Positions 445 through 17,438 of a stretch of DNA of 54,832 nucleotides are shown piece after piece. A program made the translations under genes and the position numbers. The notes beneath the pieces were generated by a model. That model saw only the letters and a list, made by a program, of their open reading frames with translations, ran no database searches and was not told the DNA's origin. Position 1 is the first letter of the stretch, and every line of letters begins with the position of its first letter. The stretch lies in the NCBI GenBank assembly GCA_020846025.1, contig JADLER010000037.1, positions 1-54,832 of the forward strand. The letters are read 5' to 3'. The stretch is from Bacteroidia bacterium. Its GTDB lineage: Bacteria > Bacteroidota > Bacteroidia > B-17B0 > Aurantibacillaceae.

Positions 445-1485
445 ATGTATAATTTTGTTACATTATTTAATTCTGCTTATTTGTCAAGAGGTTTGGTGTT
501 GTATCATTCTTTAATAAAACACTGTCCGCAATTCCATCTTTATGTGATTGCATTTGATGATGCCACGTATGATTATTTTCAAAAGTTTCCACAGCCACAT
601 TTAACGGCTATTTCACTTCAAGCATTTGAAGATGAAAAACTATTATCCATTAAAACAACACGCTCAGCCACCGAATATTGTTGGACATGCACACCATCAA
701 CAGTATTATATGCTATTAATACCTTTCAATTAAACCATTGTGTATATATTGATGCCGATATGTGTTTTTATGAGAATCCTAAGATTTTGTTTGATGAATG
801 GGGTGATAAATCGGTTTTAATTACAGAGCATCATTATACAAAACCTTATGATCAGAGTGAAGAAAGTGGGAAATATTGTGTGCAATTTGTAGGGTTTAAA
901 AATGATAAAGATGGCTTGATGGCACTTAATTATTGGCGAAATGCGTGTATTGAATGGTGCTATGCAAGAGTCGAGGATGGAAAGTTTGGAGACCAAAAAT
1001 ATTTAGATGATTGGACTACTCGTTTTAATAAAGTACATGTGATGGCACATTTAGGAGGTGGCATAGCACCTTGGAATATGCAACAATATTACTTCTCTAA
1101 ATCAGGTCAACAAATTATTGGTAAGGAAATTATTACTGGAAATAAGTTTGAGGCTATATTTTTTCATTTTCATGGTGTTAAAATCTATACCGATCATATT
1201 GTTTCTTTAACTGGTGATATGTATGAAATGAATTCTGATGCTTTACATCTGTTTTATTTGCCTTATGTGTCAAAGTTAATGGAGGTTTCAAAACATGTTC
1301 ATAAGCAAACGAAAAGACAATTTGATGCGAATGGAGCTAAAGAAAAATCACCTCAAAAACCCGAGAATTTTTTATCTTTGTTAAAATGGTATCTTTATGA
1401 CATTAGACAAGATATTAAGAATATCAACGGAAAGCGAACGAAACAACGAATGAAATATAAACATTTTTATTACTGTAATGGCTAA
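445..1485 (+). CDS. Glycosyltransferase (GT8-like, DxD motif)
   Basis: A 346-residue cytoplasmic protein beginning MYNFVTLFNSAYL, a typical start for nucleotide-sugar transferases of the GT-A fold. A DAD motif at about residues 103-105 (YIDADMCFYENP) is the expected metal and nucleotide-sugar binding site, and GGGIAPWN lies near residues 204-211. There is no signal peptide or membrane segment. It most resembles the GT8-like group found in Bacteroidota polysaccharide loci; donor and acceptor cannot be told from the sequence. It starts 3 nt after the methyltransferase fragment and its 3' end overlaps the next gene by 8 nt, indicating translational coupling. Confidence 0.75.
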   Translation: MYNFVTLFNSAYLSRGLVLYHSLIKHCPQFHLYVIAFDDATYDYFQKFPQPHLTAISLQAFEDEKLLSIKTTRSATEYCWTCTPSTVLYAINTFQLNHCVYIDADMCFYENPKILFDEWGDKSVLITEHHYTKPYDQSEESGKYCVQFVGFKNDKDGLMALNYWRNACIEWCYARVEDGKFGDQKYLDDWTTRFNKVHVMAHLGGGIAPWNMQQYYFSKSGQQIIGKEIITGNKFEAIFFHFHGVKIYTDHIVSLTGDMYEMNSDALHLFYLPYVSKLMEVSKHVHKQTKRQFDANGAKEKSPQKPENFLSLLKWYLYDIRQDIKNINGKRTKQRMKYKHFYYCNG

Positions 1486-1846
1486 AATAATAGATTTAAA
1501 AACATTTACTGATAAAAGAGGTAATCTTACTGTAGTAGAAAAAGTTTTGCCATTTGAAATAAAACGCGTTTTTTATATTTATGGAGTGGATGATTCTAAG
1601 CGAGGTGGACATCGTCATCATAAAACAATACAAGCAGCGGTGTGTATAAAGGGCTCTTGTAAAATTTATAATCATAATAATTTAAAGGAAGAGGTATTTG
1701 ATTTAAATAGCCCAAGTAAATGTTTAATCTTAAATCCTGAAGATTGGCATACTATGTATGATTTTTCTGAAGATGCCATATTAATGGTTTTTGCATCTGA
1801 ATATTTTGATCAAGCTGATTATGTTTTTGAACCTTATAACTCATGA
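1478..1846 (+). CDS. fdtA: FdtA/WxcM-type dTDP-4-keto-6-deoxyhexose 3,4-ketoisomerase
   Basis: This 122-residue single-domain cupin has the length and order of FdtA/QdtA/WxcM isomerases: [10 protein letters not shown] at residues 12-21, [10 protein letters not shown] at 43-52 carrying the active-site histidine cluster, and [12 protein letters not shown] at about 86-97. The family converts dTDP-4-keto-6-deoxyglucose to the 3-keto isomer, which the following PLP enzyme aminates to a 3-amino-3,6-dideoxyhexose. It overlaps the preceding gene by 8 nt and the next by 4 nt. Whether the product is the Fuc3N (galacto) or Qui3N (gluco) series cannot be decided here, so the symbol is a family label. Confidence 0.85.
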
Positions 1847-2928
1847 TAGATTACGAAAATTTACATCAATTAAATAAATCTTTATTTGATGAATATAAAT
1901 TGGCCTTTAATGAGGTTTTAGAAAGTGGCTGGTATATTCTAGGAAATAAAGTTAAAGAGTTTGAACAACAATTTGCTCATTATTGTCAAACTAAATATTG
2001 TGTGGGAGTTGCTAATGGATTGGATGCCCTTCAATTATCTTTAAGAGCTTTTAATTTTCAACAAGGAAGTGAAGTGTTGGTTCCTTCAAACACCTATATT
2101 GCCACTATTTTATCGATAGTTGAAAATAAATTGCAGCCCATTTTAGTAGAGCCTAATATAGTAACCTATAATATAGATCCTACTTTAATTGAACGTCATA
2201 TAACGCCTAAAACAAAAGCCATTTTAGTTGTTCATTTGTATGGCAAAATGTGTGATATGGATCCAATTATGGAAATTGCTAGAAAATACAATTTAAAAGT
2301 TATTGAGGATTGTGCTCAGTCACATGGTGCACAATACAAAGGTAAATACTCGGGTAGTTTTGGCGATTATGCGGCGCATAGTTTTTATCCAACCAAAAAT
2401 TTAGGTGCCATTGGCGATGCGGGTGCTGTTACTACCCAAGATGCGGATTTGGCTAATCGCATAAAGGTTTTAAGAAATTATGGTTCTGAAGTTAAATATT
2501 ACAATGAAGTGGTAGGTGTTAATTCTCGATTAGATGAGCTACAGGCAGCTTTATTAATAGTAAAATTAAAATATATAGAGAAGATAACTGCTCATAAAAG
2601 AGCTTTGGCCGACATTTATTTTAAAAACCTTAAATCTGATTTTGTTTTACCGCAATTACATTCAGATTATCATGATGTATTTCATATATTTAATGTAAGA
2701 CATGAGAAAAGAGATGCGCTAAAAGATTATTTATTGAAAAATGAAATTAAAACAGAGATTCATTATCCTGTAGCACCGGTAAAACAAAATGCAATGAGAG
2801 GCATTATTGATAATCAAGTAACGCCAATTGCCGAGTTAATACATCAAACAACTTTAAGTTTACCAATTTCGTATTTTCATACGGAAGATACAATACATAA
2901 AGTGGTAGAAGTCATGAATAAATTTTAG
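1843..2928 (+). CDS. fdtB: DegT/DnrJ/EryC1/StrS sugar aminotransferase (FdtB-like)
   Basis: A 361-residue fold-type I PLP aminotransferase. The N-terminal [17 protein letters not shown] is typical of the family. Asp156 in [10 protein letters not shown] and Lys185 in [15 protein letters not shown] are the expected PLP contacts, the lysine forming the internal aldimine. [12 protein letters not shown] follows near residues 227-238. It should transfer an amino group from glutamate to the 3-keto sugar made by the FdtA-type enzyme, with which it overlaps by 4 nt (ATGA). No N-acetyltransferase (FdtC/QdtC) and no rmlA or rmlB gene is in the window, so the rest of the pathway must lie upstream or elsewhere. 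Confidence 0.88.
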
Positions 2929-2932
2929 AATA

Positions 2933-3703
2933 GTGCCAAAAATTTCAATCATAACTATTAATTATAATAATGCTACGGGTTTAGATAAAACCATTCGTAG
3001 TGTAATTAATCAAACCTACAAAGAATTTGAATTTATAGTTATAGATGGTCAATCTACTGATACGAGTGTTGATGTAATTAAAACGTATGAGCATTGTATA
3101 AATAATTGGGTTAGTGAACCAGATAACGGAATTTATGATGCACAAAATAAAGGGATTTTAAAATCAACAGGAGATTATTTATTGTTTTTGAACAGCGGAG
3201 ATGTTTTAGCTGATCATAAAGTGTTAGAGAATGTAAGTGATAAACTTAATGGACGATCCTTTTATTATGGAAATTTGATTCTTGAATCTAATAGTCATAT
3301 TATTGAACATAAAGCGCCTGAATTAATTGATGTGGATTTTATGCTAAATAGTACAATTTGGCATCCATGTGTATTTATAAATTCATCTCTCTTTAAGGAG
3401 TTTGGGTTATATAATACTACATTTAAAATTTGTGGAGATTATGAGTTTTTTATTCGTTGCTTATTAAAACCTAATATCACTACTCAATATTTAGATTTAT
3501 TTATTACACAATTTGATGCTAATGGAATAAGTAATAATCCTCAACAAAACCAATTACAGACTGAGGAGAGAGAAAAAGCATGGAGAATGAATGTGTCGGA
3601 ACTTATTTATGAGAATTTAAAACAACAAAACTCATTTAAAAGAAGTAAGTATGCAACTGTTATAAACCTCTTACAGAAATGGAGAGGTAAACCTAGATTT
3701 TAA
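2933..3703 (+). CDS. Glycosyltransferase family 2
   Basis: A 256-residue GT2 enzyme (GT-A fold). It has the usual N-terminal strand PKISIITINYNNATGL, then FIVIDGQSTDTSVD, VSEPDNGIYDAQNKGI and LFLNSGDVLADH, the last in the position of the DxD metal site. The organisation resembles WcaE/WcaA-like colanic-acid transferases. The start is GTG at 2933, four bases after the aminotransferase stop; no in-frame ATG precedes the conserved first strand. It overlaps the next gene by one base (TAATG). The sugar transferred is unknown. Confidence 0.85.
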   Translation: MPKISIITINYNNATGLDKTIRSVINQTYKEFEFIVIDGQSTDTSVDVIKTYEHCINNWVSEPDNGIYDAQNKGILKSTGDYLLFLNSGDVLADHKVLENVSDKLNGRSFYYGNLILESNSHIIEHKAPELIDVDFMLNSTIWHPCVFINSSLFKEFGLYNTTFKICGDYEFFIRCLLKPNITTQYLDLFITQFDANGISNNPQQNQLQTEEREKAWRMNVSELIYENLKQQNSFKRSKYATVINLLQKWRGKPRF

Positions 3704-4485
3704 TGAGCATGTTGAAGACTATCAAGGAATATTTGTTTATGAGAAAAAAAAGATTGAAACAATCTTTTTTAAAATTGATACGAAACATAAAACGTTCATT
3801 ATTAAAAAAGCAGATGATTGATTCAGAAAATTGTTTTGATGTTCCAATTATTATTAACAACCGAAATCGTTATACTTTTCTAAAATTAATGATTGAACAA
3901 CTAACTTCTTTTGGTTATAAACACATTTATATATTAGATAACGATAGCACCTATCCACCATTATTAGAATATTATAAAACGGTATCTGCACAGGTTGTTT
4001 TTTTAGGTAGAAATGTGGGTTATAAGGCATTATGGGAAACAGAGGTGTTTGAACAGTTTAAAAAGCAATATTATGTTTATACAGATCCAGACATATTGAT
4101 GCAAAATGATTGTCCAAATGATTTTGTTTATCATTTGTATAAGGCATTAAACCTATATCCGAAGGTTGAAAAAGCGGGCGTAGCCTTGAAGATTGATGAT
4201 TTACCTGATAACTATTTATTTAAGAAAGAGGCTATTGAAAATGAAAGCATATTTTGGCAAAAAAAACTAGATGCTGAAATATATGATGCTCAAGTTGATA
4301 CTACCTTGGCATTGTATAAGCCCTTTGCTTATGGTATTGCAGAGGAATGTAAAGCCATAAGAGTAGCTGGTAAACTTACTGCTCAACATCTAACTTGGTA
4401 TTTGGATACTAACCATTTACCTGAAGAGGAGTTGTATTATAAGCAGTCTATAAAATCTAATTCGTCAGTTTATAGTGTTAAATGA
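3703..4485 (+). CDS. Glycosyltransferase (GT2-like, short)
   Basis: A 260-residue protein. A basic N-terminal segment of about 40 residues is followed by a GT-A-like core: PIIINNRNRYTFLKLMIEQL, HIYILDNDSTYPPLLEYY, VVFLGRNVGYKALWE, and YYVYTDPDILM, where the DPD is in the metal-binding position. The C-terminal half is shorter than in standard GT2 enzymes. A later ATG (Met38, just before the core) would remove the basic extension; I keep the first ATG because it overlaps the upstream stop by one base, as other genes here do. Acceptor and donor are unknown. It overlaps the next gene by 4 nt. Confidence 0.72.
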   Translation: MSMLKTIKEYLFMRKKRLKQSFLKLIRNIKRSLLKKQMIDSENCFDVPIIINNRNRYTFLKLMIEQLTSFGYKHIYILDNDSTYPPLLEYYKTVSAQVVFLGRNVGYKALWETEVFEQFKKQYYVYTDPDILMQNDCPNDFVYHLYKALNLYPKVEKAGVALKIDDLPDNYLFKKEAIENESIFWQKKLDAEIYDAQVDTTLALYKPFAYGIAEECKAIRVAGKLTAQHLTWYLDTNHLPEEELYYKQSIKSNSSVYSVK

Positions 4486-5426
4486 GTGCATTGGTTTCAA
4501 TATGTATCCCTACTTACAGGCAGACACTTTATTTAAAAAGATGTTTGGATTCGGTTGTTAATCAAGATTATGCAAATTTAGAGATTATTATTTCAGACGA
4601 TTCTCCTGATGATACTGTAAAATTATTTCTTGAAACAGAATTCTCGAAACTTAAATACGATTACCATAAAAATGATTCGCCGTTAGGCTCACCTCGTAAT
4701 TGGAACGCAGCAATTCAATGTGCTAATGGAGACTATATAAAAATATTACATCACGATGATTTCTTTACACAACCACATAGTTTAAGTATGATGGTAAATG
4801 AAATATCAAATACTCAATCTGATTTTCTATTTTGTCAAACTGATGTGTGGTACACTAATAAAAATACACATCGTATCCAAAGCGTTTCAAACAAACAATT
4901 CAGATTATTGAAACAATTCCCAGAATTGTTATTTTATAAAAATATAATTGGTGCTCCGAGTGTTATATTGCATAAGAACAAGAATGAATATAAATATGAT
5001 GAAAACTTGAAGTGGTTGGTAGATGTTGATTTTTATTTGAATGCTTTTTTTTTAAAGGCCAAATGGTGTTATTTAGATAAACCATTAATTTCTACGATGC
5101 ACGACGTTGAAGGTCAAATTACTGGATCTGTACTAAACGATAAGGATGTTCAGATAAGGGAACATCTTTTACTTTTTAATAAAATTAAACCACATATTTT
5201 TAATTTAAAAGGTGCAACTCAGTTTTTTGATAATCTGTTTTTTAAATATCAAGTTAAGAGTTTTAATGAACTTTATGATATAACGCCACATGCTGAAAAT
5301 AACCGTGCTTTTTATGAAGAGATAATTGCTGGATTGCCAAATTTTCGCTTTTTCAAAAATTTCAGAAGACGTTTCTTTGAGAGTCGTTACAATAATTATA
5401 TCTTTAAATTTGAACCATATATATGA
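4482..5426 (+). CDS. Glycosyltransferase family 2
   Basis: A 314-residue GT2 enzyme with a canonical start: ALVSICIPTYRQTLYLKRCL, then EIIISDDSPDDTVK, GSPRNWNAAIQCANGDYIK and ILHHDDFF, where the HDD supplies the metal-binding aspartates. After the catalytic domain comes a C-terminal helical region of about 100 residues without recognised motifs. The gene overlaps its neighbours by 4 nt on each side (ATGA junctions at 4482 and 5423), so it is translationally coupled in the polysaccharide operon. The transferred sugar cannot be predicted. Confidence 0.85.
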   Translation: MSALVSICIPTYRQTLYLKRCLDSVVNQDYANLEIIISDDSPDDTVKLFLETEFSKLKYDYHKNDSPLGSPRNWNAAIQCANGDYIKILHHDDFFTQPHSLSMMVNEISNTQSDFLFCQTDVWYTNKNTHRIQSVSNKQFRLLKQFPELLFYKNIIGAPSVILHKNKNEYKYDENLKWLVDVDFYLNAFFLKAKWCYLDKPLISTMHDVEGQITGSVLNDKDVQIREHLLLFNKIKPHIFNLKGATQFFDNLFFKYQVKSFNELYDITPHAENNRAFYEEIIAGLPNFRFFKNFRRRFFESRYNNYIFKFEPYI

Positions 5427-6307
5427 TTATTGTAAAACTCATAGGTGGATTAGGAAATCAAATGTTTCAATATGCGGCAGCCCGTCATTTATCGTATTTA
5501 AGAGATACACCTTTGCTTTTTGATACAAGTTATATTGACAAGGAACCAGCAGGTGCCTATACTAAGCGCCAGATGGAATTAGACGCTTTTAATATTCAAA
5601 TACAGAAAGCTACTCAGTCAGAAATAGATTTTTTTGATATACCACATTCCAATAAAATAACACGTAGTTTGCAACGAAATTTCCCATTTTTTTTTAAGAA
5701 TTTGTATGTTGCAGAAAGTGGTTCCTCTTTTAACAAAAAATTCTTTAATTTTCCTAAAAACACATATTTGGAGGGATTTTGGCAAAGTGAGAAATATTTT
5801 TTAGCCATTAGAGAAATTATCTTAAAAGATTTTACGTTAAAAAACACATTAGAAACTGAATATGAAAAATATTTGCATCAAATTCAATCGTTAAATGCTG
5901 TATCGTTACATGTACGACGTGGTGATTATGTTTCAAATGAATTTGTAAAGCAGCATCATGGTAATTTACCTTTTTCATATTATCAAGATGCTATTAGGTT
6001 CATAAGTAAATATCATTCTAATTTGGATGTATTTGTTTTTTCTGATGATATTACATGGTGTCGTTCTCATCTTAATTTGGAGGTCAATACACAATTTGTC
6101 GAGAATCTTTCTGGTTCTAATCCTCATTCTGAGATGTATTTAATGTCAAAATGTAAACACCATATTGTAGCGAATAGTAGTTTTAGTTGGTGGGGAGCAT
6201 GGTTAAATACCAATCCATCTAAAATTGTTGTGGCCCCAAGACAATGGTACGCTGATAGTAAATTAAATACTAACGATTTAATTCCAAAGACGTGGAAAAC
6301 ACTTTAA
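5423..6307 (+). CDS. Alpha-1,2-fucosyltransferase (GT11)
   Basis: This 294-residue protein is a clear GT11 member. It begins MIIVKLIGGLGNQMFQYAAA, the hallmark N-terminus, carries the GDP-fucose binding HVRRGDYV motif at residues 163-170, and has SSFSWWGAWL near 252-261. Such enzymes add L-fucose, or occasionally another sugar from a GDP donor, in alpha-1,2 linkage to galactose on O-antigen or capsule. No GDP-fucose synthesis genes (gmd, wcaG) are visible in the window. It overlaps the GT2 gene before it by 4 nt and the one after it by 16 nt. Confidence 0.92.
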   Translation: MIIVKLIGGLGNQMFQYAAARHLSYLRDTPLLFDTSYIDKEPAGAYTKRQMELDAFNIQIQKATQSEIDFFDIPHSNKITRSLQRNFPFFFKNLYVAESGSSFNKKFFNFPKNTYLEGFWQSEKYFLAIREIILKDFTLKNTLETEYEKYLHQIQSLNAVSLHVRRGDYVSNEFVKQHHGNLPFSYYQDAIRFISKYHSNLDVFVFSDDITWCRSHLNLEVNTQFVENLSGSNPHSEMYLMSKCKHHIVANSSFSWWGAWLNTNPSKIVVAPRQWYADSKLNTNDLIPKTWKTL

Positions 6308-7320
6308 ATACAGGATCACCAGTGGTGTCGGTTGTGATGTCTGCATATAATGCAGAGAGTTTTCTACATGAAGCAATTGAAAGCGTTTTAAATCAAACAT
6401 TTCAGCAGTTTGAGTTAATTATTATCAATGATGGCTCTACTGATTCTACTTTATCAATTATAAAATCATTTCAAGATCATCGTATTAAAATAATTGAAAA
6501 CGATAAAAACAGAGGCCTTATTTATTCTTTAAACAAAGGCATTGAATTATCTAAAGGAAAGTATATTGCTCGAATGGATGCAGATGATATTTGTATGCCT
6601 AGTCGTTTAGAGAATCAAGTTCGGATGTTTGAATTAAATCAGAATGCTGTTATTGTTGGTAGTAATTATTATTTGTTATATCAATCAAAACTCAAACATA
6701 TCAAAAATCGAAATGACAGTGATTATCAAAAAGCAGTATTGATTTTTACGCCTTGTTTTTGTCATCCAACGGTAATGATGAAAAATATATTTTCTCAATA
6801 TAATTTATCGTATCATCCTAACTTTTTACATGCTGAGGATTTTAAATTATGGACTGATATGGCACAATACGGCACGTTTTTAAATGTTGCAAAACCATTA
6901 TTAAAATACCGTCATCATACAAAACAAGTGAGTAATCAATATCACGAGAACCAATTGAAAATTAGTAGTGATATCAGAAGCGCTTATTTGCAAAAGCTGG
7001 GGTTTAAAATCACTGATGAACAACTAAATATAATTAATCTAATTGGAGATAATATTTTCATTAGAACATTAGAATCATTAGAAGCAATTGAAATGGTTCT
7101 ACTTTTATTACATAAACAAAATAATACGCTGCAAGTGTTTAATACGACCTCATTCTCAACTTTTTTATTAAAATTTTGGTTTGACTCCTGTGGTAATACC
7201 TCCTTAGGTTTAACTGCTTATCATTTATTCTTTAAATCACAAATCGCATCACTTTCTCATGTTACTTCACGACAAAAATTAATTTTATTTGCTAAATGTT
7301 GTATTAGAAGGTTTAATTAA
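6292..7320 (+). CDS. Glycosyltransferase family 2
   Basis: A 342-residue GT2 enzyme: PVVSVVMSAYNAESFLHEAIESVL, LIIINDGSTDSTLSII, NDKNRGLIYSLNKGIELSKG, and YIARMDADDICMPSRL with the catalytic DADD. The start used is GTG at 6292, inside the end of the fucosyltransferase gene; an in-frame GTG at about 6322 would still retain the whole first strand. It is the last gene of the polysaccharide run and is followed by a long leader region for the next operon. No terminator hairpin is apparent between 7321 and 7383. Confidence 0.85.
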   Translation: MENTLNTGSPVVSVVMSAYNAESFLHEAIESVLNQTFQQFELIIINDGSTDSTLSIIKSFQDHRIKIIENDKNRGLIYSLNKGIELSKGKYIARMDADDICMPSRLENQVRMFELNQNAVIVGSNYYLLYQSKLKHIKNRNDSDYQKAVLIFTPCFCHPTVMMKNIFSQYNLSYHPNFLHAEDFKLWTDMAQYGTFLNVAKPLLKYRHHTKQVSNQYHENQLKISSDIRSAYLQKLGFKITDEQLNIINLIGDNIFIRTLESLEAIEMVLLLLHKQNNTLQVFNTTSFSTFLLKFWFDSCGNTSLGLTAYHLFFKSQIASLSHVTSRQKLILFAKCCIRRFN

Positions 7321-7382: not shown

Positions 7383-7415
7383 TTTGGAGATATAACTTTT
7401 TATACTTTAACTTTG
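7383..7415 (+). promoter_or_regulatory. Bacteroidota-type promoter for the met operon
   Basis: TTTG at 7383-7386 and TAACTTTG at 7408-7415 are separated by 21 nt. Both match the published Bacteroidota sigma-ABfr consensus (TTTG, then TAnnTTTG). Transcription should begin around 7420-7425, about 25 nt before the riboswitch. The match is exact at both boxes; the start point is inferred. Confidence 0.75.
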
Positions 7416-7446: not shown

Positions 7447-7574
7447 AATTTATAAAGAAGTGGCGAGAGAATAGGCTCGATGACCCACTGGCAACCAACT
7501 AAAAGTTCTGATAAAACAGAATTGGAAAACCGGTGCCAAATCCTACTCCGATGAAAAACGGAGACAAATAAATT
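7447..7574 (+). ncRNA. SAM-I (S-box) riboswitch
   Basis: The conserved SAM-I core is visible. P1 is AATTTAT (7447-7453) pairing perfectly with ATAAATT (7568-7574). P2 has AGTGG/CCACT plus CGAG/CTCG with a kink-turn-like GATGA between. GGCAACC (7490-7496) is followed by a P3 arm with TTCTG/CAGAA, GGTGCCAAATCC (7532-7543), and a P4 hairpin CTCCG/CGGAG. A pseudoknot between the P2 loop (TAGG, 7472-7475) and CCTA (7542-7545) can form. It lies directly upstream of methionine genes, the expected target. No classical terminator follows P1, so the mode of control is unclear. Confidence 0.9.
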
Positions 7575-7589
7575 AAATAATTAAAGAAC

Positions 7590-7715
7590 ATGAAACACAC
7601 AACTGCAACTAAAATCCTAAAATCTCAAAAGCTAGATTTTAAAAAGGTATTAAATTCTTCGTTATTTTCATCATTTATGATATCTTACTGTATGTGCTGT
7701 TGTTGCATGTGCTAG
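7590..7715 (+). CDS. Cys/Met-rich leader peptide (putative attenuator uORF)
   Basis: An ATG-started ORF of 41 codons ends at TAG 7713-7715. The peptide starts MKHTTATKILKSQKLDF, continues KKVLNSSLFSSFMISY, and finishes CMCCCCMC: six cysteines and two methionines in the last eight residues (Cys34, 36-39, 41; Met35, 40). Sulfur amino acids are exactly what the downstream operon makes. The ATG lies 15 nt after the riboswitch P1 stem, with an A-rich upstream sequence usual for Bacteroidota starts. By analogy with polycysteine leader ORFs described in mycobacteria, ribosome stalling at the Cys/Met run could control the operon. It might instead encode a small metal-binding peptide. Function is inferred; the ORF and its composition are seen directly. 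Confidence 0.7.
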   Translation: MKHTTATKILKSQKLDFKKVLNSSLFSSFMISYCMCCCCMC

Positions 7716-7746
7716 TATATCCTTTTTATTTCGTGGGTATTTCTAT

Positions 7747-7793
7747 TGACTTTTAGTTAGTCATGAAACTTGCAGATGGTAGCCTATTCCATC
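7747..7793 (+). promoter_or_regulatory. Two small hairpins after the leader ORF
   Basis: TGACT (7747-7751) pairs with AGTCA (7759-7763). GATGG (7775-7779) pairs with CCATC (7789-7793), enclosing a 9-nt loop. The second loop contains AGCCTATT, complementary to the P2 arm and loop of the riboswitch. Neither hairpin is followed by a T-run, so they are not intrinsic terminators. Role unknown. Confidence 0.4.
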
Positions 7794-7815
7794 ATTATTA
7801 CAAATCAAATAACCT

Positions 7816-7855
7816 TTTATGTTGTGATACAAGCGCGCGGTATTAATAACATAAA
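7816..7855 (+). promoter_or_regulatory. Long hairpin before metY
   Basis: TTTATGTT (7816-7823) is complementary to AACATAAA (7848-7855). Inside it TGATAC pairs with GTATTA (one G-U), leaving an AAGCGCGCG loop. The 14-bp interrupted stem ends 37 nt before the metY start codon. No T-run follows, so it is more likely an anti-terminator, ribosome-access or mRNA-stability element, or a DNA operator, than a terminator. Confidence 0.5.
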
Positions 7856-7880
7856 GCAATCAACAAATAATAACAATTAA

Positions 7881-9239
<1,359 letters not shown>

Positions 9240-9252
9240 TAAACTAAAAATT

Positions 9253-10293
9253 ATGAGTCATAAATTATTAGTTCACAACAAAAGATTTCTATTAGAAAGT
9301 GGCTTGTCACTTCCTAAATTAGAAATTGCCTATCACACATTTGGTAAGTTAAATGCTGAAAAAAGTAATGTAGTTTGGGTAGCTCATGCACTTACTGCAA
9401 ATAGCAATGTGTTTGACTGGTGGCAAGGATTATTTGGAATAAATGAATTGTTTAATCCTGATGAATATTTTGTGGTGTGTGCTAATAATTTAGGCTCTTG
9501 TTATGGAACAACAGGGCCACTTAGTATTAATCCAGATACAAACCAGCCATGGTATGCTTACTTTCCTGAAATTACAACAAAAGATATGGCTAATGCCCTT
9601 CAACTATTAAAAGAGCATCTTGGAATTGAAAAAATTCATACTTTAATCGGTGGTTCGCAAGGAGGTCAAATTGCCTTAGAGTGGTCATTGCTTCAAAAAG
9701 ATATTTCAGAGCACCTTATTTTAATTGCAACCAACGCTCAACATTCATCATGGGGTATTGCATTTAATGAATCGCAACGTTTGGCAATTAAAGCCGATAG
9801 AACCTATTTTTCTAATTCACCACAAGGAGGAGCTAAAGGACTTAAGGCAGCAAGAAGCATTGCTTTGCTAAGTTATAGAAGTTATGATACTTATCAAAAT
9901 ACACAATCAAGTGATAAATATTCAAATAACTATGCGGCTTCGTATCAACGTTACCAAGGAGAAAAATTGGTTAATCGTTTTAATGCTTATGCTTATGTTA
10001 GATTATCAGAAGCGATGGATTCACACAATATTTCAAAAAATAGGGGAGATAATGTTGTAAATGTATTAAAAGCTATTAAGGCTAAAACATTGGTTATAGG
10101 ATTAAAAACAGATATATTATTTCCTACATCAGAACAACGATTTATTGCCAATAATATTAAGGATTCTGTATATAGTGAAATTGATTCTTTATATGGACAT
10201 GATGGTTTTTTAATTGAAACAAAACAATTAACGGAGCATATCAAACAATTTTATCAATCAAATACAATTAAAATTAACGAAGCAGTTATTTAA
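9253..10293 (+). CDS. metX: Homoserine O-acetyltransferase
   Basis: A 346-residue alpha/beta-hydrolase-fold acyltransferase of the MetX family. The nucleophile is Ser135 in LIGGSQGGQIALEW. The acid is in GLKTDILFPT near residue 280-290, and the catalytic His is in LYGHDGFLIE close to the C-terminus. CANNLGSCYGTTGP matches the family's acyl-pocket segment. It acetylates homoserine from acetyl-CoA, feeding MetY, whose gene ends 13 nt upstream. Some MetX-like enzymes use succinyl-CoA or act on serine. The partner MetY and the downstream homoserine dehydrogenase favour homoserine O-acetylation. Confidence 0.93.
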   Translation: MSHKLLVHNKRFLLESGLSLPKLEIAYHTFGKLNAEKSNVVWVAHALTANSNVFDWWQGLFGINELFNPDEYFVVCANNLGSCYGTTGPLSINPDTNQPWYAYFPEITTKDMANALQLLKEHLGIEKIHTLIGGSQGGQIALEWSLLQKDISEHLILIATNAQHSSWGIAFNESQRLAIKADRTYFSNSPQGGAKGLKAARSIALLSYRSYDTYQNTQSSDKYSNNYAASYQRYQGEKLVNRFNAYAYVRLSEAMDSHNISKNRGDNVVNVLKAIKAKTLVIGLKTDILFPTSEQRFIANNIKDSVYSEIDSLYGHDGFLIETKQLTEHIKQFYQSNTIKINEAVI

Positions 10294-10306: not shown

Positions 10307-11557
10307 ATGAGTAAAAAATTAAAAATTGGATTATTTGGTTTTGGATGTGTAGGTCAAGGTCTATATCATGTATTAAAAAATAGTACAGGCTTTAAAGCAG
10401 ATATTGTTAAAATTGCTGTTAAAGATAAAGCTAAATTAAGAACGGTTGAACCATCATTGATTACGTATAATAAATGGGAGATATTAGAAAATCCAGAAAT
10501 TGATGTCGTTGTGGAGTTAATTGATGATGCTGATGAAGCTTTTCAAATTGTAAGCGAAGCCTTAAGAAGAAGAAAACATGTAGTTACAGCTAATAAAAAA
10601 ATGTTAGCCGAACATTTAGAAGAATTATATCATTTACAATATGAATATAATGTTTCTTTATTATACGAAGCAGCTGCATGTGGAAGTATTCCAATTATTC
10701 GATCTTTGGAAGAGTATTTTGATAACGAGGAACTGAAAAAGGTTTCTGGTATATTTAATGGGACAACAAATTATATTTTAACCAAAACATTAACTGAAAA
10801 CTTGACCTATCAAGAGGCATTGTGTCAAGCCAAGGATAAAGGTTTTGCTGAGTCTAATCCAGTAAATGATGTGGAAGGATTTGATCCTAAATTTAAAGCA
10901 ATAATCATTGCATTGCACGCCTTCGGGTTAATTATTAAACCGAGTGGGGTGTTAAACATTGGGATAACTACTTTACAAGAGATTGATATAAAATACGCTA
11001 ATGAAAAAGGATATAAAATTAAATTAACACCACATATTCATCATATCACCCGAGATAAAGTTTCTGTATTTGTAGTTCCGAGTTTTATAAAATCACAAAA
11101 TCATTTATTTAATGTAGATAACGAGTTTAATGGTGTAATTGTAGAAGGCAAGTTTTCTGGCGAACAGTTTTTTCAAGGAAAAGGTGCAGGAAGCTATCCT
11201 ACTGGAGCAGCTGTTTTATCTGATATTTCAGCATTATCTCATGGTTATAAATACGAGTTTAAGAAATATACGCAAAATCAAATTCTGAGTTTCTCCAATG
11301 ATGTTATACTCGAAGTGTATTTTAGATATAATTCACCTAATGATTTGCAATACCTACATTTTGAGGAAATAACTGAGAAATATTCTAGTGACAGTTATTA
11401 TTATGTAATTGGAAAAATTCATCTTGAACATTTAATTGGGTATCGGGAATATATTCTTACAAACAACCTTTTTATTTCGCTAATAAATGAACGAGTAGAA
11501 ATCTCAAATGACGAAAAACTTAAAAAGAGTTTTAAAAAGGAATTTCAGATTTTCTAA
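10307..11557 (+). CDS. Homoserine dehydrogenase
   Basis: A 416-residue monofunctional homoserine dehydrogenase. The Rossmann nucleotide site is GLFGFGCVGQGLYHVL at about residues 9-24, followed by VVTANKKMLAEH near 93-104. The catalytic-domain signature includes GIFNGTTNYILTKTL and NPVNDVEGFDPKFKAII. The last 90 residues are the extra C-terminal domain usual in Bacteroidota Hom, with an ACT-like role possible but not clear in sequence. It reduces aspartate semialdehyde to homoserine, supplying MetX. No aspartate kinase is fused. The gene starts 13 nt after metX, so metY-metX-hom is one transcript. Confidence 0.93.
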   Translation: MSKKLKIGLFGFGCVGQGLYHVLKNSTGFKADIVKIAVKDKAKLRTVEPSLITYNKWEILENPEIDVVVELIDDADEAFQIVSEALRRRKHVVTANKKMLAEHLEELYHLQYEYNVSLLYEAAACGSIPIIRSLEEYFDNEELKKVSGIFNGTTNYILTKTLTENLTYQEALCQAKDKGFAESNPVNDVEGFDPKFKAIIIALHAFGLIIKPSGVLNIGITTLQEIDIKYANEKGYKIKLTPHIHHITRDKVSVFVVPSFIKSQNHLFNVDNEFNGVIVEGKFSGEQFFQGKGAGSYPTGAAVLSDISALSHGYKYEFKKYTQNQILSFSNDVILEVYFRYNSPNDLQYLHFEEITEKYSSDSYYYVIGKIHLEHLIGYREYILTNNLFISLINERVEISNDEKLKKSFKKEFQIF

Positions 11558-11687: not shown

Positions 11688-12596
11688 ATGAGCCGACAGT
11701 TTGATTATTTAGACTTTTTAGAATCTGAGGCAATACATATACTGCGCGAAGTGGCTGGTCAGTTTGAACGACCTGTTTTATTATTTAGTGGAGGAAAAGA
11801 TAGTACTGTTTTAGTACACCTAGCGCTCAAAGCATTTCGACCAGGTAAATTTCCTTTCCCTTTATTACATATTGATACAGGGCATAACTTTGAGGAAGCC
11901 ATTGTGTTTAGGGATCAACTGGTTAAACAAATTGATGAAAAATTGATTGTTCGTTATGTAGCGGATACTATAAAACAACATAATTTGCAGGATGCTAAAG
12001 GTAAGTTCCCAAGTAGAAATGTTTTACAAACAAATACTTTATTAGATGTTATTGAAGAATTCAGTTTTGATGCTTGTATAGGTGGTGCTAGACGTGATGA
12101 AGAGAAAGCAAGAGCCAAAGAACGTGTGTTTTCTGTACGAGATGAGTTCGGTCAATGGAACCCTAAATCGCAACGCCCAGAATTATGGAATATTTACAAT
12201 GGGAAAATCAATAAAGGCGAGAATGTGAGAGTGTTTCCTATTAGTAATTGGACAGAATTAGATGTTTGGAATTATATTAAACGAGAACAGATTTCACTTC
12301 CTTCTATTTACTTTACTCATGAACGTGATTGTATTGTGTTAAATAATGGGCAATTAATGAATGTTAATCAATTTATAAAAGTAGATGAAACAGATATAAT
12401 TGCTCGTAAGAAAGTAAGATACCGTACAGTAGGCGATATGACTTGTACAGCGGCAATTGAAAGTGAAGCATATACGATAGATGATATCATTAAAGAGTTG
12501 GAAAATACTAAAATTAGTGAAAGAGGTGCTACGCGAATGGATGATAGAATCAGCGAAGCTGCAATGGAGGATAGAAAGAAAAACGGATATTTCTAA
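11688..12596 (+). CDS. cysD: Sulfate adenylyltransferase subunit 2
   Basis: A 302-residue PP-loop ATP pyrophosphatase. The signature FSGGKDSTVLVHLA is at residues 33-46, followed by HIDTGHNFEEAI and IGGARRDEEKARAKER, all typical of CysD. With CysN it forms the heterodimeric ATP sulfurylase that makes adenosine 5'-phosphosulfate from sulfate. It lies 130 nt after homoserine dehydrogenase and 54 nt before cysN. The presence of cysDN suggests the cell can assimilate sulfate, although cysH, cysIJ and cysC are not in this window. It may be read through from the met promoter or from its own. Confidence 0.96.
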   Translation: MSRQFDYLDFLESEAIHILREVAGQFERPVLLFSGGKDSTVLVHLALKAFRPGKFPFPLLHIDTGHNFEEAIVFRDQLVKQIDEKLIVRYVADTIKQHNLQDAKGKFPSRNVLQTNTLLDVIEEFSFDACIGGARRDEEKARAKERVFSVRDEFGQWNPKSQRPELWNIYNGKINKGENVRVFPISNWTELDVWNYIKREQISLPSIYFTHERDCIVLNNGQLMNVNQFIKVDETDIIARKKVRYRTVGDMTCTAAIESEAYTIDDIIKELENTKISERGATRMDDRISEAAMEDRKKNGYF

Positions 12597-12650: not shown

Positions 12651-13895
12651 ATGGAATTACTTAGATTTTTTACTGCAGGAAATGTTGATGATGGAAAAAG
12701 TACACTCATTGGTCGTTTGTTATATGATAGCCAATCCATCTCAACAGATATTATTGAAACATTAACTAAACAGAGTAAGGCTATAAAGGAAGATAATACG
12801 TTTAATTTAGCTTTATTAACAGATGGATTGAGGGCAGAAAGGGAACAGGGTATTACAATTGATGTAGCCTATAAATACTTTACCACATCAAAACGAAAAT
12901 TTATTATAGCTGATACACCAGGACATGTACAATACACACGTAATATGTTTACAGGTGCATCATTAGCTCATGTAGCTTTACTATTAATTGATGCCAGGCA
13001 TGGTATAACTGAACAAACAAAACGACATGCAGTAATCTCATCTATTCTGCGAATACCAAATGTATTGGTGTGTATAAACAAAATGGATTTAATTAATTAT
13101 AGTGAACATAAATTTAATGAAATAAAAGATGAATTCATGAAATTTGCACATCAATTGAATTTATCAAGTATTACATTTATTCCAATGAGTGCCTTGTTGG
13201 GAGAAAATGTGGTAACACAATCTAATAAAATGGATTGGTATAGAGAAAAGTCGTTATTAGATTATTTAGAAACTGTTGAAATTAATTCGTCTCAAAAAAC
13301 ACTGTCATCTAGATTTCAGGTACAATATGTTATAAGGCAAGAGACTGATGTTGTACATAACTATAGAGGCTATGCAGGGAAAGTTCTATCAGGTAAATAT
13401 TACGTAGGACAAAAGGTAAAAATACTACCTGGGAATTATGAATCAGAAATTTCTTGTATCGAAATGAACCAACAAAAAGTTATAGAAGCTTCTTCAAATT
13501 CTTCAATAATTATTCAATTAAAAAACGATATAGATGTAGGTAGAGGTTGTTCAATAATTCCTTTTAATGAGTTTCCATTTACAAGCAATGAATTTACTGC
13601 AATTTTGTGTTGGATGGATAATTGTTCGTTTGTAAAAGGCCAAAAATTTTATCTTCAACAAAATTCGTTTAGAACAAAAGCAATTATTAAAGAAATTGTT
13701 TTTAAAATTAATATTCATTCCTTTGAACCAAAAGAATGTGAATCAGATATTCAATTAAATGATATTTGTAAAGTTGTAATTAAAACAGCTGAACCAATGT
13801 GTTTTGATAGCTTTAAGGAGAATACAACCACTGGTGCATTTATTCTAATAAATGAAGCCACAAATAATACTATTGCGGCTGGAGTGATAGAATAA
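12651..13895 (+). CDS. cysN: Sulfate adenylyltransferase subunit 1 (GTPase)
   Basis: A 414-residue translation-factor-like GTPase. The P-loop is GNVDDGKSTLIGRLL at residues 10-24. The switch region REQGITIDVAY, DTPGHVQYTRNM (G3) and NKMDLINYS (G4) follow in order, then EF-Tu-like beta-barrel domains. Its GTP hydrolysis drives APS formation by CysD. The length is that of stand-alone CysN, so no APS kinase (CysC) domain is fused. A bidirectional terminator follows within 60 nt, marking the end of the sulfur operon. Confidence 0.96.
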   Translation: MELLRFFTAGNVDDGKSTLIGRLLYDSQSISTDIIETLTKQSKAIKEDNTFNLALLTDGLRAEREQGITIDVAYKYFTTSKRKFIIADTPGHVQYTRNMFTGASLAHVALLLIDARHGITEQTKRHAVISSILRIPNVLVCINKMDLINYSEHKFNEIKDEFMKFAHQLNLSSITFIPMSALLGENVVTQSNKMDWYREKSLLDYLETVEINSSQKTLSSRFQVQYVIRQETDVVHNYRGYAGKVLSGKYYVGQKVKILPGNYESEISCIEMNQQKVIEASSNSSIIIQLKNDIDVGRGCSIIPFNEFPFTSNEFTAILCWMDNCSFVKGQKFYLQQNSFRTKAIIKEIVFKINIHSFEPKECESDIQLNDICKVVIKTAEPMCFDSFKENTTTGAFILINEATNNTIAAGVIE

Positions 13896-13970: not shown

Positions 13971-16900
13971 TTAATGATTAATAATTAATTTTAGTGTAGT
14001 TTCTTGATTTTCTATTTCTAGTCTAATAAAATAAACTCCTGAAGGAATATGTTTAGTTTCAAAACTAAATTGTTGGTGGCCTTGTTCGTATTTAGCTTCA
14101 TGAATTATATCAGTAACTTTTTCTCCTAATACATTACACAAAGTAGCTTTGATATTTGCAGTAATATTTAAGTCAAACGCAAGGTAACTTAATTGTGTAG
14201 ATGGATTTGGATAAAGATTGATAGTACCTTTTATTTGGTTTAAATGATGAATAGATGAAGTAACACCAGTTGGATTTATGTACATTGAATCTACCACAAA
14301 ATCAAGATTGTTAAATGTTGTAGAGCCAGTACTTATAACACGATGGTAAGTGCTACTTGTATCAAGCCCAGGAATATCTACCATAATAAAATACGATTCG
14401 TTGGTTAAATTATCAGGTAATCCTGTTAAAGTGTATGTGCCGTTCACATCAGTAGTTGTTTGCACTAACATTTGCCCTCCGGGGTTGCGACCTCCTTTTA
14501 CAATGATACCTCTAATAGGTTGTCCTGGGGCAGTTGGCTTAAATTCATCAAAGGCTAATCTTAGTCCAAAGCCTATTCCTTCAGTAATTGTCCCGCTTAA
14601 TTGACCAGAGCCAGGTGTAAATGTTTCTAATGGTATGATTTTAATATTTTGATTAGTATTATTTGCACAACCATGAGAAATAATAGTTGCATCTTGCCAA
14701 GTTATGGAACTATCGGCATACGTTATTTGTAGATTAGTTGCAGTAGGTGTTGCTCTAATTACATATTGTCCACTATCAACACTAGTGAAATTATAACTAC
14801 TAGCTAGTGGAACAGAAGTTAATGAATCCCATTTACTTAAATATAATGTATATTTATAAAGCGTTACATCACCTGAGGTTACACCTGCTGTATTTGTAAT
14901 AGTTCCTCCAATGTTTTTATTTGAAATAATATTAATAGATCTTGTTTCTGTACCAATACAACCATTTATATCTGTAACTGATAATGAATAAGTGGTAGTT
15001 AATGTAGGATTTGCAACTACAGACGCTGTATTTGTTGAATTTAATCCAGCTGATGGTGTCCAGTTATAATTGTATGGTGGAATTCCCCCACTAACATTAG
15101 AACTTAAATTAGTACTTGAACCTTTACATAAATTGAAATTCCCAGAAATATTTGGAATTATGGCAATTGGTTGATTAATCGTGGCAATTGCGGTATTTGT
15201 ACAACCATTAGTAGCTGTTACCTGTAATGTATATATGCCAGCACATACATTAGTAATATTTGCTGTAGTTTGTGATGTAGGTAACCAAAAGTAAGAAGAT
15301 GCAGGGATTCCTGTAACAGTAGATGTTATGGAGCCATTACATGAGCCAAAGCATAAAGCATTATTGGGAGAGAGAGTTATATTAGGTGTAATTGTATTTT
15401 GAGTAACAATAGTAGTTTCAGTTGATGCACAACCATTAGCCGAAACAGCAGTAAATGAATATGTACCAGGTAAATTTACAACAGCATTTAATGTCGCACC
15501 TCCAGAGACAACTCCAGACCCTGACCATAAATAGTTAATGCCACCAATTACAGTAGCAGTAAGTGTATTTGTAGTGATTGAACAATTTAAGGAGGCTGTG
15601 TTTAATGAGATGGTAGGGTTTGGATATACAGTAATACTTATTGTAGGGGCACTAATACAACCATTATTATCAATGACCTGGGCTGTATAATTTGTGCTTA
15701 AAGTTGGGTTAGCAATTACAACAGAAGTATTAGTTGAACTCAACCCCGTAGGTGGTGTCCAATTGTAAGAGTAAGGAGGTGTTCCTCCAGTTGCAGTTAC
15801 TGTGAGTGTGGTGTTTGAACCAATGCATATATTGGAGTTGCCATTTACAACTGCTGTTAAAGGGGGTGGTGAACTTACAGTAACAGTTTTGGTAACAATA
15901 CATCCTGATGCATCAGATACATTTAAGCTATAAGTACCAGCGCACAATCCAGTAACACTTGGCGTAGTTTGACTTCCAGGCATCCAATTATAAGTATATG
16001 GTAAAATACCTCCAGTTACGTTACTTGCAACAATTCCATCGCAAGAACCTTGACAGGCAGTGTTAGTTTGTGTGGTATTGGCTATAACATTAATAACAGT
16101 TAGAGTAACCGTATTAGATGCTAAATTATAGCATCCATCATTTACTATACATCTTATATTGTTTTGATTTAAACTTGGATTAGTTAAAACTGACAAAGTA
16201 GAGTTAGTGGCGTTTGAATATGGTGAAGTGGCATCTGCAAAAAATAATGAATTACGAACTTGCCACTGAAATGATGCCCCTGTTGCTCCACATGTGAAAC
16301 TTCCATTGGCACCATTACAAACTGTTTGGGAAACTGGTTGGCTATCTATATTATAACTACCAACTGAAGTGCGAACACTTCCTTTAGAACCTGTATAATC
16401 ATAATAGTAAAAATAAGGATAACCACTGCCATCAATATCTATATTTACAAGTGAAGTACTTGTAGAAGTGGTAACATTTGAGAGAATTAAATCGAAATTA
16501 CCGCTTCCACTATTATATTTATAAACATCTGGGTAAGGAGGAGTTGTGGGAGTAGAGATAAATAATGGATTGTCATTAGGATCTATTGCTAAATCAAAAT
16601 ATCCTTGAACAGCACTTCTTCCTGAATGAGTTGAACCTACTTGAGACCATGATCCTGAAGTGTATTTATATACAGATAAACCACTCGTTTCTGTGTAACC
16701 CAAAAAATAATCATTAGAATTTTTACCAATTTTAATTATACCATTTGTAACCGTAGATGTACCAAAGCTTCCTATTGAGTTCCAATTAACACCATCAAAC
16801 TCTTGAACTTCAAGTTTACCTGAGTTATCAATATCTTGATACACAACAATAGGATTTCCACCATAATTAACTGCAATTGAGTTATATTGTGCTTGCCCTG

Positions 16901-17438
16901 CAGATACGACGCCAGAGCCAACATTATCCCAAGTACTTAATGTCGAATTCCATTTTTTTACAGTTGTTGCATTTCCATTTGACACATCTGAATATGCAAC
17001 ATATTCAATACCTAACGTATCGAACGCTAAAGCAAAATTATTACCAACATTTGAAGAAATGCTACTTCCCTGTTGAATTAATGTAGAACCTGATAAATAA
17101 TACAAAAGTGGAGTTTTAGAGCCAGCATCATCACGCACTATAATGGATACTTTACCTGTTCTACTAATAGCTATATCTGTATTTACATTACATGAAGTAG
17201 CAAGAGAAGCTTGCAATGTCCATGTAGAAACTGTTTTTCCTTTCCATAATTCTGTTTTGCCTGAGTTGCCTTTACCTAACAATACATAAATATCGCCATT
17301 AGGTGCAACTGCCATAGATTGATTTTGTGGATTAGTTAAAAAGCCTAATGCCCCTACTTGATCTCTTGAACATTGTGAAAATAATTTTAAACTGAAACTC
17401 AGTCCTAAAACAATAATACTTAATAAATATTTTTTCAT
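13971..17438 (-). CDS. Large SprB-repeat secreted protein with T9SS sorting domain
   Basis: An 1155-residue exported protein. A signal peptide of about 22 residues ends at LFSQ. Residues about 25-370 look like a beta-propeller of short repeats (GxPxxxYxD). An Ig-like segment follows. Residues about 450-870 hold tandem repeats of the SprB/PKD-like type, with the recurring pattern C-x-G-x-C-x-G-x-I-x-S and PYxYNWxP. The last 75 residues (INLYPNPSTQ ... GVYFIRLEI) form a T9SS type-A C-terminal signal. It is therefore probably a cell-surface or released adhesin-like protein; ligand unknown. SprB-type repeats occur in gliding adhesins, but this protein is far smaller than SprB itself. Confidence 0.85.
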   Translation of the reverse strand: MKKYLLSIIVLGLSFSLKLFSQCSRDQVGALGFLTNPQNQSMAVAPNGDIYVLLGKGNSGKTELWKGKTVSTWTLQASLATSCNVNTDIAISRTGKVSIIVRDDAGSKTPLLYYLSGSTLIQQGSSISSNVGNNFALAFDTLGIEYVAYSDVSNGNATTVKKWNSTLSTWDNVGSGVVSAGQAQYNSIAVNYGGNPIVVYQDIDNSGKLEVQEFDGVNWNSIGSFGTSTVTNGIIKIGKNSNDYFLGYTETSGLSVYKYTSGSWSQVGSTHSGRSAVQGYFDLAIDPNDNPLFISTPTTPPYPDVYKYNSGSGNFDLILSNVTTSTSTSLVNIDIDGSGYPYFYYYDYTGSKGSVRTSVGSYNIDSQPVSQTVCNGANGSFTCGATGASFQWQVRNSLFFADATSPYSNATNSTLSVLTNPSLNQNNIRCIVNDGCYNLASNTVTLTVINVIANTTQTNTACQGSCDGIVASNVTGGILPYTYNWMPGSQTTPSVTGLCAGTYSLNVSDASGCIVTKTVTVSSPPPLTAVVNGNSNICIGSNTTLTVTATGGTPPYSYNWTPPTGLSSTNTSVVIANPTLSTNYTAQVIDNNGCISAPTISITVYPNPTISLNTASLNCSITTNTLTATVIGGINYLWSGSGVVSGGATLNAVVNLPGTYSFTAVSANGCASTETTIVTQNTITPNITLSPNNALCFGSCNGSITSTVTGIPASSYFWLPTSQTTANITNVCAGIYTLQVTATNGCTNTAIATINQPIAIIPNISGNFNLCKGSSTNLSSNVSGGIPPYNYNWTPSAGLNSTNTASVVANPTLTTTYSLSVTDINGCIGTETRSINIISNKNIGGTITNTAGVTSGDVTLYKYTLYLSKWDSLTSVPLASSYNFTSVDSGQYVIRATPTATNLQITYADSSITWQDATIISHGCANNTNQNIKIIPLETFTPGSGQLSGTITEGIGFGLRLAFDEFKPTAPGQPIRGIIVKGGRNPGGQMLVQTTTDVNGTYTLTGLPDNLTNESYFIMVDIPGLDTSSTYHRVISTGSTTFNNLDFVVDSMYINPTGVTSSIHHLNQIKGTINLYPNPSTQLSYLAFDLNITANIKATLCNVLGEKVTDIIHEAKYEQGHQQFSFETKHIPSGVYFIRLEIENQETTLKLIINH

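Follow-up and report, generated by a model that had tools for sequence, protein, structure and literature searches.

The methionine operon in this stretch of DNA (the window, 54,832 nucleotides in full) is preceded by a 41-codon open reading frame (ORF) ending in a run of Cys and Met codons. The ORF very probably encodes the leader peptide of an attenuator that reads the charging of Cys-tRNA and Met-tRNA, placed behind a SAM riboswitch. This reading draws on comparison with related leaders, in which the tail is constrained at the level of coding, Cys and Met codons stand before the stop codon, the ORF is tied specifically to SAM leaders of metY/metX and the RNA after the stop is structured. 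An earlier reading of the same DNA, made from the sequence only, had proposed such an attenuator in tandem with SAM-I, and the comparison, with its conserved tail and enriched Met, argues strongly for it.

In the proposed mechanism, a ribosome starting at 7590 would translate the leader, arrive at the Cys/Met run right before the stop codon, and stall on the run when Cys-tRNA or Met-tRNA is scarce. The position of the stalled ribosome would set the folding of the RNA after the stop, and with it the amount of metY-metX-hom-cysD-cysN message made or used. We infer that starvation increases expression, with a geometry in which a halt early in the run would leave a first hairpin (h1) free and a ribosome at the stop would cover the first arm of h1. 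Together with the riboswitch this would form a two-step gate, in which SAM acts first and the supply of Cys and Met second. A wider proposal, to which we give a little less than an even chance, is a nested gate with two inputs, in which a terminator-less SAM-I riboswitch has its output through the leader start codon, with SAM determining if the Cys-tRNA/Met-tRNA sensor comes into play. The sensor would act through RNA structure after the stop, without an intrinsic terminator and without hiding a start site, and several Bacteroidota lineages would share the arrangement in their operons for homocysteine synthesis.

Leader, riboswitch and operon in the window

The leader ORF occupies 7590-7715 on the plus strand, running from ATG (7590-7592) through 41 sense codons to TAG (7713-7715), and encodes MKHTTATKILKSQKLDFKKVLNSSLFSSFMISYCMCCCCMC. 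Six Cys and two Met codons make up its final eight (7689-7712, plus strand), giving the end CMCCCCMC directly adjoining the stop, as the sequence-only reading had described; both the ORF and its run are seen in the sequence and in the leaders of relatives. Upstream, at 7447-7574 on the plus strand, stands a SAM-I (S-box) riboswitch aptamer (RF00162, model positions 1-108, E 2.5e-13), whose score of 66.4 bits exceeds the gathering score of 44.4 and places it in that family. An A-rich spacer with the start region of the leader ORF follows (7575-7589, plus strand), so that the aptamer-to-ATG distance is 15 nt. On the 5′ side of the aptamer, the sequence contains a promoter-like pair, TTTG ... TAACTTTG (7383-7415, plus strand), a candidate that we take to resemble the Bacteroidetes -33/-7 consensus, a promoter type outside the reach of the sigma-70 scan.

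Pfam and NCBIfam profiles give the gene order after the leader as metY, metX-like, homoserine dehydrogenase, cysD and cysN, all on the plus strand, and the earlier claim of a SAM riboswitch upstream and a methionine/sulfate operon downstream holds. The metY gene (O-acetylhomoserine sulfhydrylase, 7893-9239) matches TIGR01326 at 656.8 bits (cut-off 495.1), and the metX-like homoserine O-acyltransferase gene (9253-10293) matches the acetyl type best, at 342 bits to TIGR01392, below the cut-off of 500. Homoserine dehydrogenase (10307-11557; NF004976, 324.3 bits, cut-off 205) is followed by the small and large subunits of sulfate adenylyltransferase, cysD (11688-12596; TIGR02039, 423.4 bits, cut-off 396.6) and cysN (12651-13895; TIGR02034, 492.6 bits, cut-off 336.1). 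The ORF precedes the operon as had been stated, and the gap between its stop and the metY ATG is 177 nt (7716-7892) rather than the 178 nt first given.

Directly 5′ of the leader, glycosyltransferase-like and sugar-aminotransferase-like genes were recognised by eye at 445-7320 and are probably a surface polysaccharide cluster. Beyond cysN, the minus strand (13971-17438) encodes a secreted-looking repeat protein of 1,155 aa, whose C-terminal end we take to resemble a type IX secretion sorting domain.

Conservation and composition of the Cys/Met tail

Related leaders were compared by a fixed rule, under which an ORF was counted when it began with ATG at -20 to +400 nt relative to the aptamer end, had 15-90 codons and held at least four Cys within 10 of its final 16 residues. 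The relatives' set comprised RF00162 matches from the window's own genome and 40 relatives (59 listed) and from the 87 genomes of its family (87 new, the first 47 chosen for aptamers shorter than 160 nt and the remaining 40 also read), giving 145 loci, 105 in a first count and 40 further family loci. L181, with a run of N in its leader, was left out of all counts, and L091, whose locus is identical to L030, out of the peptide counts. Downstream genes were assigned by short motifs at any point of the locus sequence (a few 'metH' loci start with another gene). On this basis, 49 of 51 metY/metX leaders have a short Cys-rich-ended ORF behind the aptamer, against none of the 94 other SAM leaders (0/85 metH, 0/5 metB-like and 0/4 other). 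Among the metY/metX leaders two fail the rule, L212 because it has three Cys and L024 because its tail is broken; the remaining 40 family loci (38 metH and two other) contain no such ORF even at three Cys. Since metH- and metY/metX-type SAM riboswitches coexist in many of the relatives' genomes, the metH leaders form a within-genome control. The sequence-only reading had suggested looking for Cys/Met tails in related leaders; the tail is conserved there, as is the link to biosynthetic genes that marks a leader attenuator.

A chance origin of the tail had been called very unlikely, and the controls agree: the same rule passes 7 of 1,980 dinucleotide shuffles of the named leaders described below and 2 of 1,206 background tiles. 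The pattern TGYTGYTGYTGY has 42 matches in the window's own genome, 30 of which were turned into loci; among the 25 loci examined (at most two sites each, with 12 matches outside the reading), only the window's run ends a leader-sized ATG-started ORF. L236 in this genome is an 11-codon ORF with the end CCCCG. Across the 87 family genomes, the tail-plus-stop pattern occurs at 30 sites against three for a reversed control pattern, and 29 of the 30 coincide with SAM leaders by coordinates. The 30th, L259, has neither an ATG nor a SAM riboswitch and was dismissed as chance. The second SAM riboswitch of the window's own genome (G000:C205:13194-13309, L001) lies before metH and is not accompanied by a Cys-tail ORF.

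The last 12 codons of 100 distinct peptides encode 599 Cys (50%) and 199 Met (17%) among 1,200 residues, against 44 Cys (1.6%) and 34 Met (1.3%) among 2,696 in the ORF bodies, and His drops from 101/2,696 (3.7%) in the body to 16/1,200 (1.3%) in the tail; the peptides were selected on Cys, so the independent figures are those for Met and His. The codons of the pathway's amino acids, Cys and Met, are concentrated in the run, as in leader attenuators. In 28 overlapping close pairs, the differing codons comprise 298 nonsynonymous against 65 synonymous of 795 in the body and 28 against 25 of 280 in the tail, as raw counts with no neutral-rate baseline, and change at the amino-acid level is far lower in the tail codons than in the body. 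Conservation of synonymous sites, which had been proposed as a sign to look for, is absent, TGT and TGC being interchanged at aligned Cys positions. The number, spacing and order of Cys also differ among leaders (e.g., CCCCCC, CCMCICCPCC and MCMCCCC), and L209 exceeds L208 by 42 nt in length without loss of the reading frame. The constraint on the tail, the TGT/TGC exchange and the in-frame change of length together point to codon identity, not a folded peptide, as what is retained.

Position -3 of the leader ATG is A in 46 of the 48 leaders of the window's own family and, over the full set, in 70 of 100. L009 and L171 have G and T at this position; both were omitted by oversight from the folding, two-hairpin and codon-change analyses, whose own-family set therefore numbers 46 leaders. 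Start context, constrained tail and in-frame length change are the signs in the sequence that the ORF would be translated.

The sequence-only reading had named a metal-binding mini-protein as its alternative, which may be widened to a small Cys/Met-rich metal-binding or redox protein or a copper-sensing nascent chain like CutF/CruR. Both Cys and Met are Cu(I) ligands, and translation-coupled, Cys-containing sensor proteins that regulate the next gene are known from the available part of one report (PMC9973294). This explanation is nonetheless improbable, given the His depletion of the tail, the variable number, spacing and order of Cys, the mostly nonsynonymous substitutions in the body and the confinement of the ORF, in relatives, to metY/metX SAM leaders. 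Residues adjoining a stop codon remain in the ribosome exit tunnel when translation ends, so that the tail would at that point still lie within the tunnel.

Several leaders depart from the common form. The leader ORFs of L209 and L198 are interrupted midway by additional in-frame codons (IGDV.IAIAS.ASR), perhaps a small repeat element. Short terminal forms are seen in L139 (ATRMR) and in the class-mate L338 (CCITRMR), and the CCCC of L114 is distant from its stop.

Proposed ribosome loading, RNA structure and the putative output step

Aptamer and leader ATG are separated by a median of 10 nt, and by 3-15 nt in 93 of 100 leaders, against a median of 84 nt for the first in-frame metH ATG (47 loci). 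A terminator would hardly fit into so short a distance. With the aptamer of the window ending 15 nt before the ATG, the riboswitch most likely governs ribosome loading on the leader; most simply, the closed aptamer stem would hinder leader initiation.

The RNA after the stop folds more stably than shuffled sequence, with a mean z of -1.66 in own-family leaders (46), -2.28 in Pedobacter (11) and -1.82 in Mucilaginibacter-type leaders (7), and to a lesser degree in Cytophagales-type leaders (-0.60; 18); the values are -0.26 farther 3′ and 0.17 for the body of the ORF. A pair of neighbouring hairpins, in most cases near +3 to +34 and +35 to +54, occurs in 23 of the 46 own-family leaders (39 of 920 shuffles) and in 5 of 17 Pedobacter/Mucilaginibacter leaders (15 of 340 shuffles); the sequences of this module differ between own-family leaders, and under the search rule 18 of the 46 have no module. 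In the window, the two-hairpin search gives the candidates h1 (ATATCC/GGGTAT, 7717-7740) and h2 (TGACT/AGTCA, 7747-7763), 3′ of the stop on the plus strand, both of which are weak here and lie outside the leader's own lowest-energy fold. The counterparts of h1 in relatives have a comparable position and a different sequence. RNAalifold gave covariation of h2 in ten Pedobacter leaders, a weak h1 with h2 absent (-0.78 kcal/mol) in 19 own-family leaders (A5) and nothing in 46 mixed leaders; alignment A2 is misaligned, the window and L055 differing in it, and L123 is absent from A4.

The UGY run might itself be an RNA element that pairs downstream, its reading frame being incidental. In eight leaders, most of which carry Cytophagales names and which were chosen after the pairing was noticed, the stop is followed by an invariant GCAACA that is able to pair with the Cys codons and may be their partner. 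Over 101 leaders, by contrast, the Cys run pairs with downstream RNA about as well as expected by chance (mean z -0.48, below -2 in 11 leaders), the start, frame and stop are retained despite the change of length, and Met codons are likewise enriched, all of which makes a pure RNA element very unlikely. Invariant GCAACA and then a conserved GTGAC motif follow the stop in L095, L097, L102, L106, L113, L115, L128 and L136.

As to the output step of the proposed attenuator, intrinsic terminators are not enriched up to +110 of the stop (2 of 100 leaders against 18 of 1,000 shuffles), and none is present in the window between 7340 and 7900. A trp-type transcription attenuator was set aside with terminators at the level of shuffles. 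In a crude mask model of 41 leaders, accessibility of the metY start differed by -0.008 between a ribosome at the first Cys codon and one at the stop, and a translation attenuator hiding the metY start appears, on this model, not to apply. The lack of either kind of output would suit a translated ORF whose Cys codons just slow ribosomes and a riboswitch that is the sole regulator, but that explanation is just as unlikely as the RNA element, for it leaves unexplained why Cys and Met, which both belong to the pathway, should be selectively enriched and why the ORF is absent at metH leaders. The RNA 3′ of the hairpins contains more C (19%) than G (11%), with 17% and 13% in metH leaders. This excess is weakly consistent with Rho, and Rho-dependent termination is a first guess for the output of the attenuator. 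CruR works through Rho.

By a simple rule, 41 of 48 own-family leaders have a conserved ORF of about 75 aa between leader and first gene, with the motif NLIG..FL..Q..YG.AQRGG...RLVSDVNILTS.E..IFSN. It starts about 200-310 nt past the SAM aptamer (e.g., in L016, L020, L180, L195, L208 and others) and is absent from the window (L002). One member gave no Pfam or NCBIfam match, alignment gave no PDB sequence match, and the structure model is of low confidence (pLDDT 54.5).

Known systems and occurrence in Bacteroidota

Mycobacterial poly-Cys leaderless sORFs are reportedly cysteine-responsive attenuators, according to work by Canestrari in 2020. They differ from the Bacteroidota leader, which is not leaderless. 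Leader peptides of cys operons with runs of Cys codons are described for Mycobacterium, P. acnes and B. longum in the part available of an earlier paper (PMC1262725), in keeping with the mycobacterial polycysteine leaders named in the sequence-only reading. Shared features there are a short ORF, a Cys run near the stop, a place before sulfur amino acid genes and no obvious terminator. Those leaders belong to Actinobacteria and to cys/cbs genes, and the same part of the paper names no riboswitch (PMC1262725), whereas the window-type leader belongs to Bacteroidota and metY/metX, lies directly behind a SAM-I aptamer and includes Met codons too. The uORFC-8-2 motif, which precedes cysS in Rhodobacterales, likewise has Cys codons in an upstream ORF and a proposed ribosome-mediated attenuation; it differs in having just a pair of adjacent Cys codons, as a rule codons 14-15, and in its U-run terminator and its tRNA synthetase gene (PMC8632094, available part). 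CutF and CruR also have a Cys-containing ORF that controls the next gene via its own translation, with metal genes, a proline-rich end and, in CutF, a Sec signal peptide (PMC9973294, available part), in place of the sulfur amino acid genes and Cys/Met end of the window-type leader. With the SAM-I (S-box) riboswitch, RF00162, the aptamer itself is shared; the nearest start codon here is that of the leader peptide, and a terminator after the aptamer was not found.

Leader-peptide attenuation is best known in Proteobacteria and Actinobacteria, judging from the accessible portion of one source (PMC2965389). A partial literature search, missing most subscription journals, found no poly-Cys leader paired with a SAM riboswitch, no Cys+Met sensor and no such leader in Bacteroidota. 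None of the terms metX, short ORF and cysteine occurs in the main text of a F. johnsoniae profiling paper (PMC6847099), and the parts examined of a B. thetaiotaomicron map mention leader-peptide-like sORFs, none of the Cys/Met type (PMC7366714). By analogy, the Bacteroidota Cys/Met leader would work like the known leader-peptide attenuators and is best filed among them. If this is true, several Bacteroidota lineages would apply leader-peptide attenuation to sulfur amino acids in series with a riboswitch, and a single leader would sense two charged tRNAs together with SAM, the end product. Ribosome-position control would then be testable in bacteria without Shine-Dalgarno sequences, with about a hundred natural leader variants available for locating the output step.

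Within the window's family the Cys-tail leader is close to fixation; elsewhere it recurs, with a patchy distribution. A MetY-alignment search gave 80 named loci, a non-random sample of the nearest relatives of the window's MetY, 66 of which have an above-cut-off SAM aptamer upstream of metY. The ORF rule passes 42 of these 66 leaders at four Cys, 50 at three and 30 at five, where the reverse strand gives 1, 5 and 0 of 66; shuffles pass in 33 of 1,980 at three Cys and 0 of 1,980 at five, besides the seven at four given above. Passing leaders include those of Pedobacter, Mucilaginibacter, Pontibacter, Rufibacter, Chryseolinea, Cesiribacter, Bernardetia and Haliscomenobacter. Below the rule fall 24 of 66 at four Cys and 16 at three; L143, whose SAM aptamer is 1,500 nt from metY, was scored as a miss, and six of the 24 are leaders of Algoriphagus, Belliella and Lunatimonas that have the aptamer and no Cys run. 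Three of the 13 named loci with no SAM match and at least 300 nt upstream also pass (L110, L138 and L169), the upstream DNA of L125 being too short. A permissive search of 7 of the 14 named loci lacking a SAM match, these three included, found no sub-threshold aptamer, so the leader can occur without the riboswitch.

From a phylum sample of 392 genomes, a non-random set of 70 loci was read, namely the 30 best-scoring and 40 further listed (28 class-mates and 12 of other classes). Among these listed best-scoring matches, only the class-mate L075 has a Cys-tail ORF, which corresponds to 1 of 35 loci classed metY/metX, 0 of 6 further metY-like loci and, by taxonomy, 1 of 31 class-mates and 0 of 39 loci from other classes; L325, L331, L332, L337, L346 and L355 look metY-like yet are classed 'other'. 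With one ORF in 70 loci, a class-wide rule is not borne out. The class-mates L325, L331, L332 and L337 have SAM leaders in front of another MetY-like type (TNALHAGHD...), with no Cys-tail ORF. In Sphingobacterium (L155, L157 and L163, the last two identical), the leader ends in a Met run (MSMRMRM) and one final Cys, as if the putative sensor had moved from Cys to Met.
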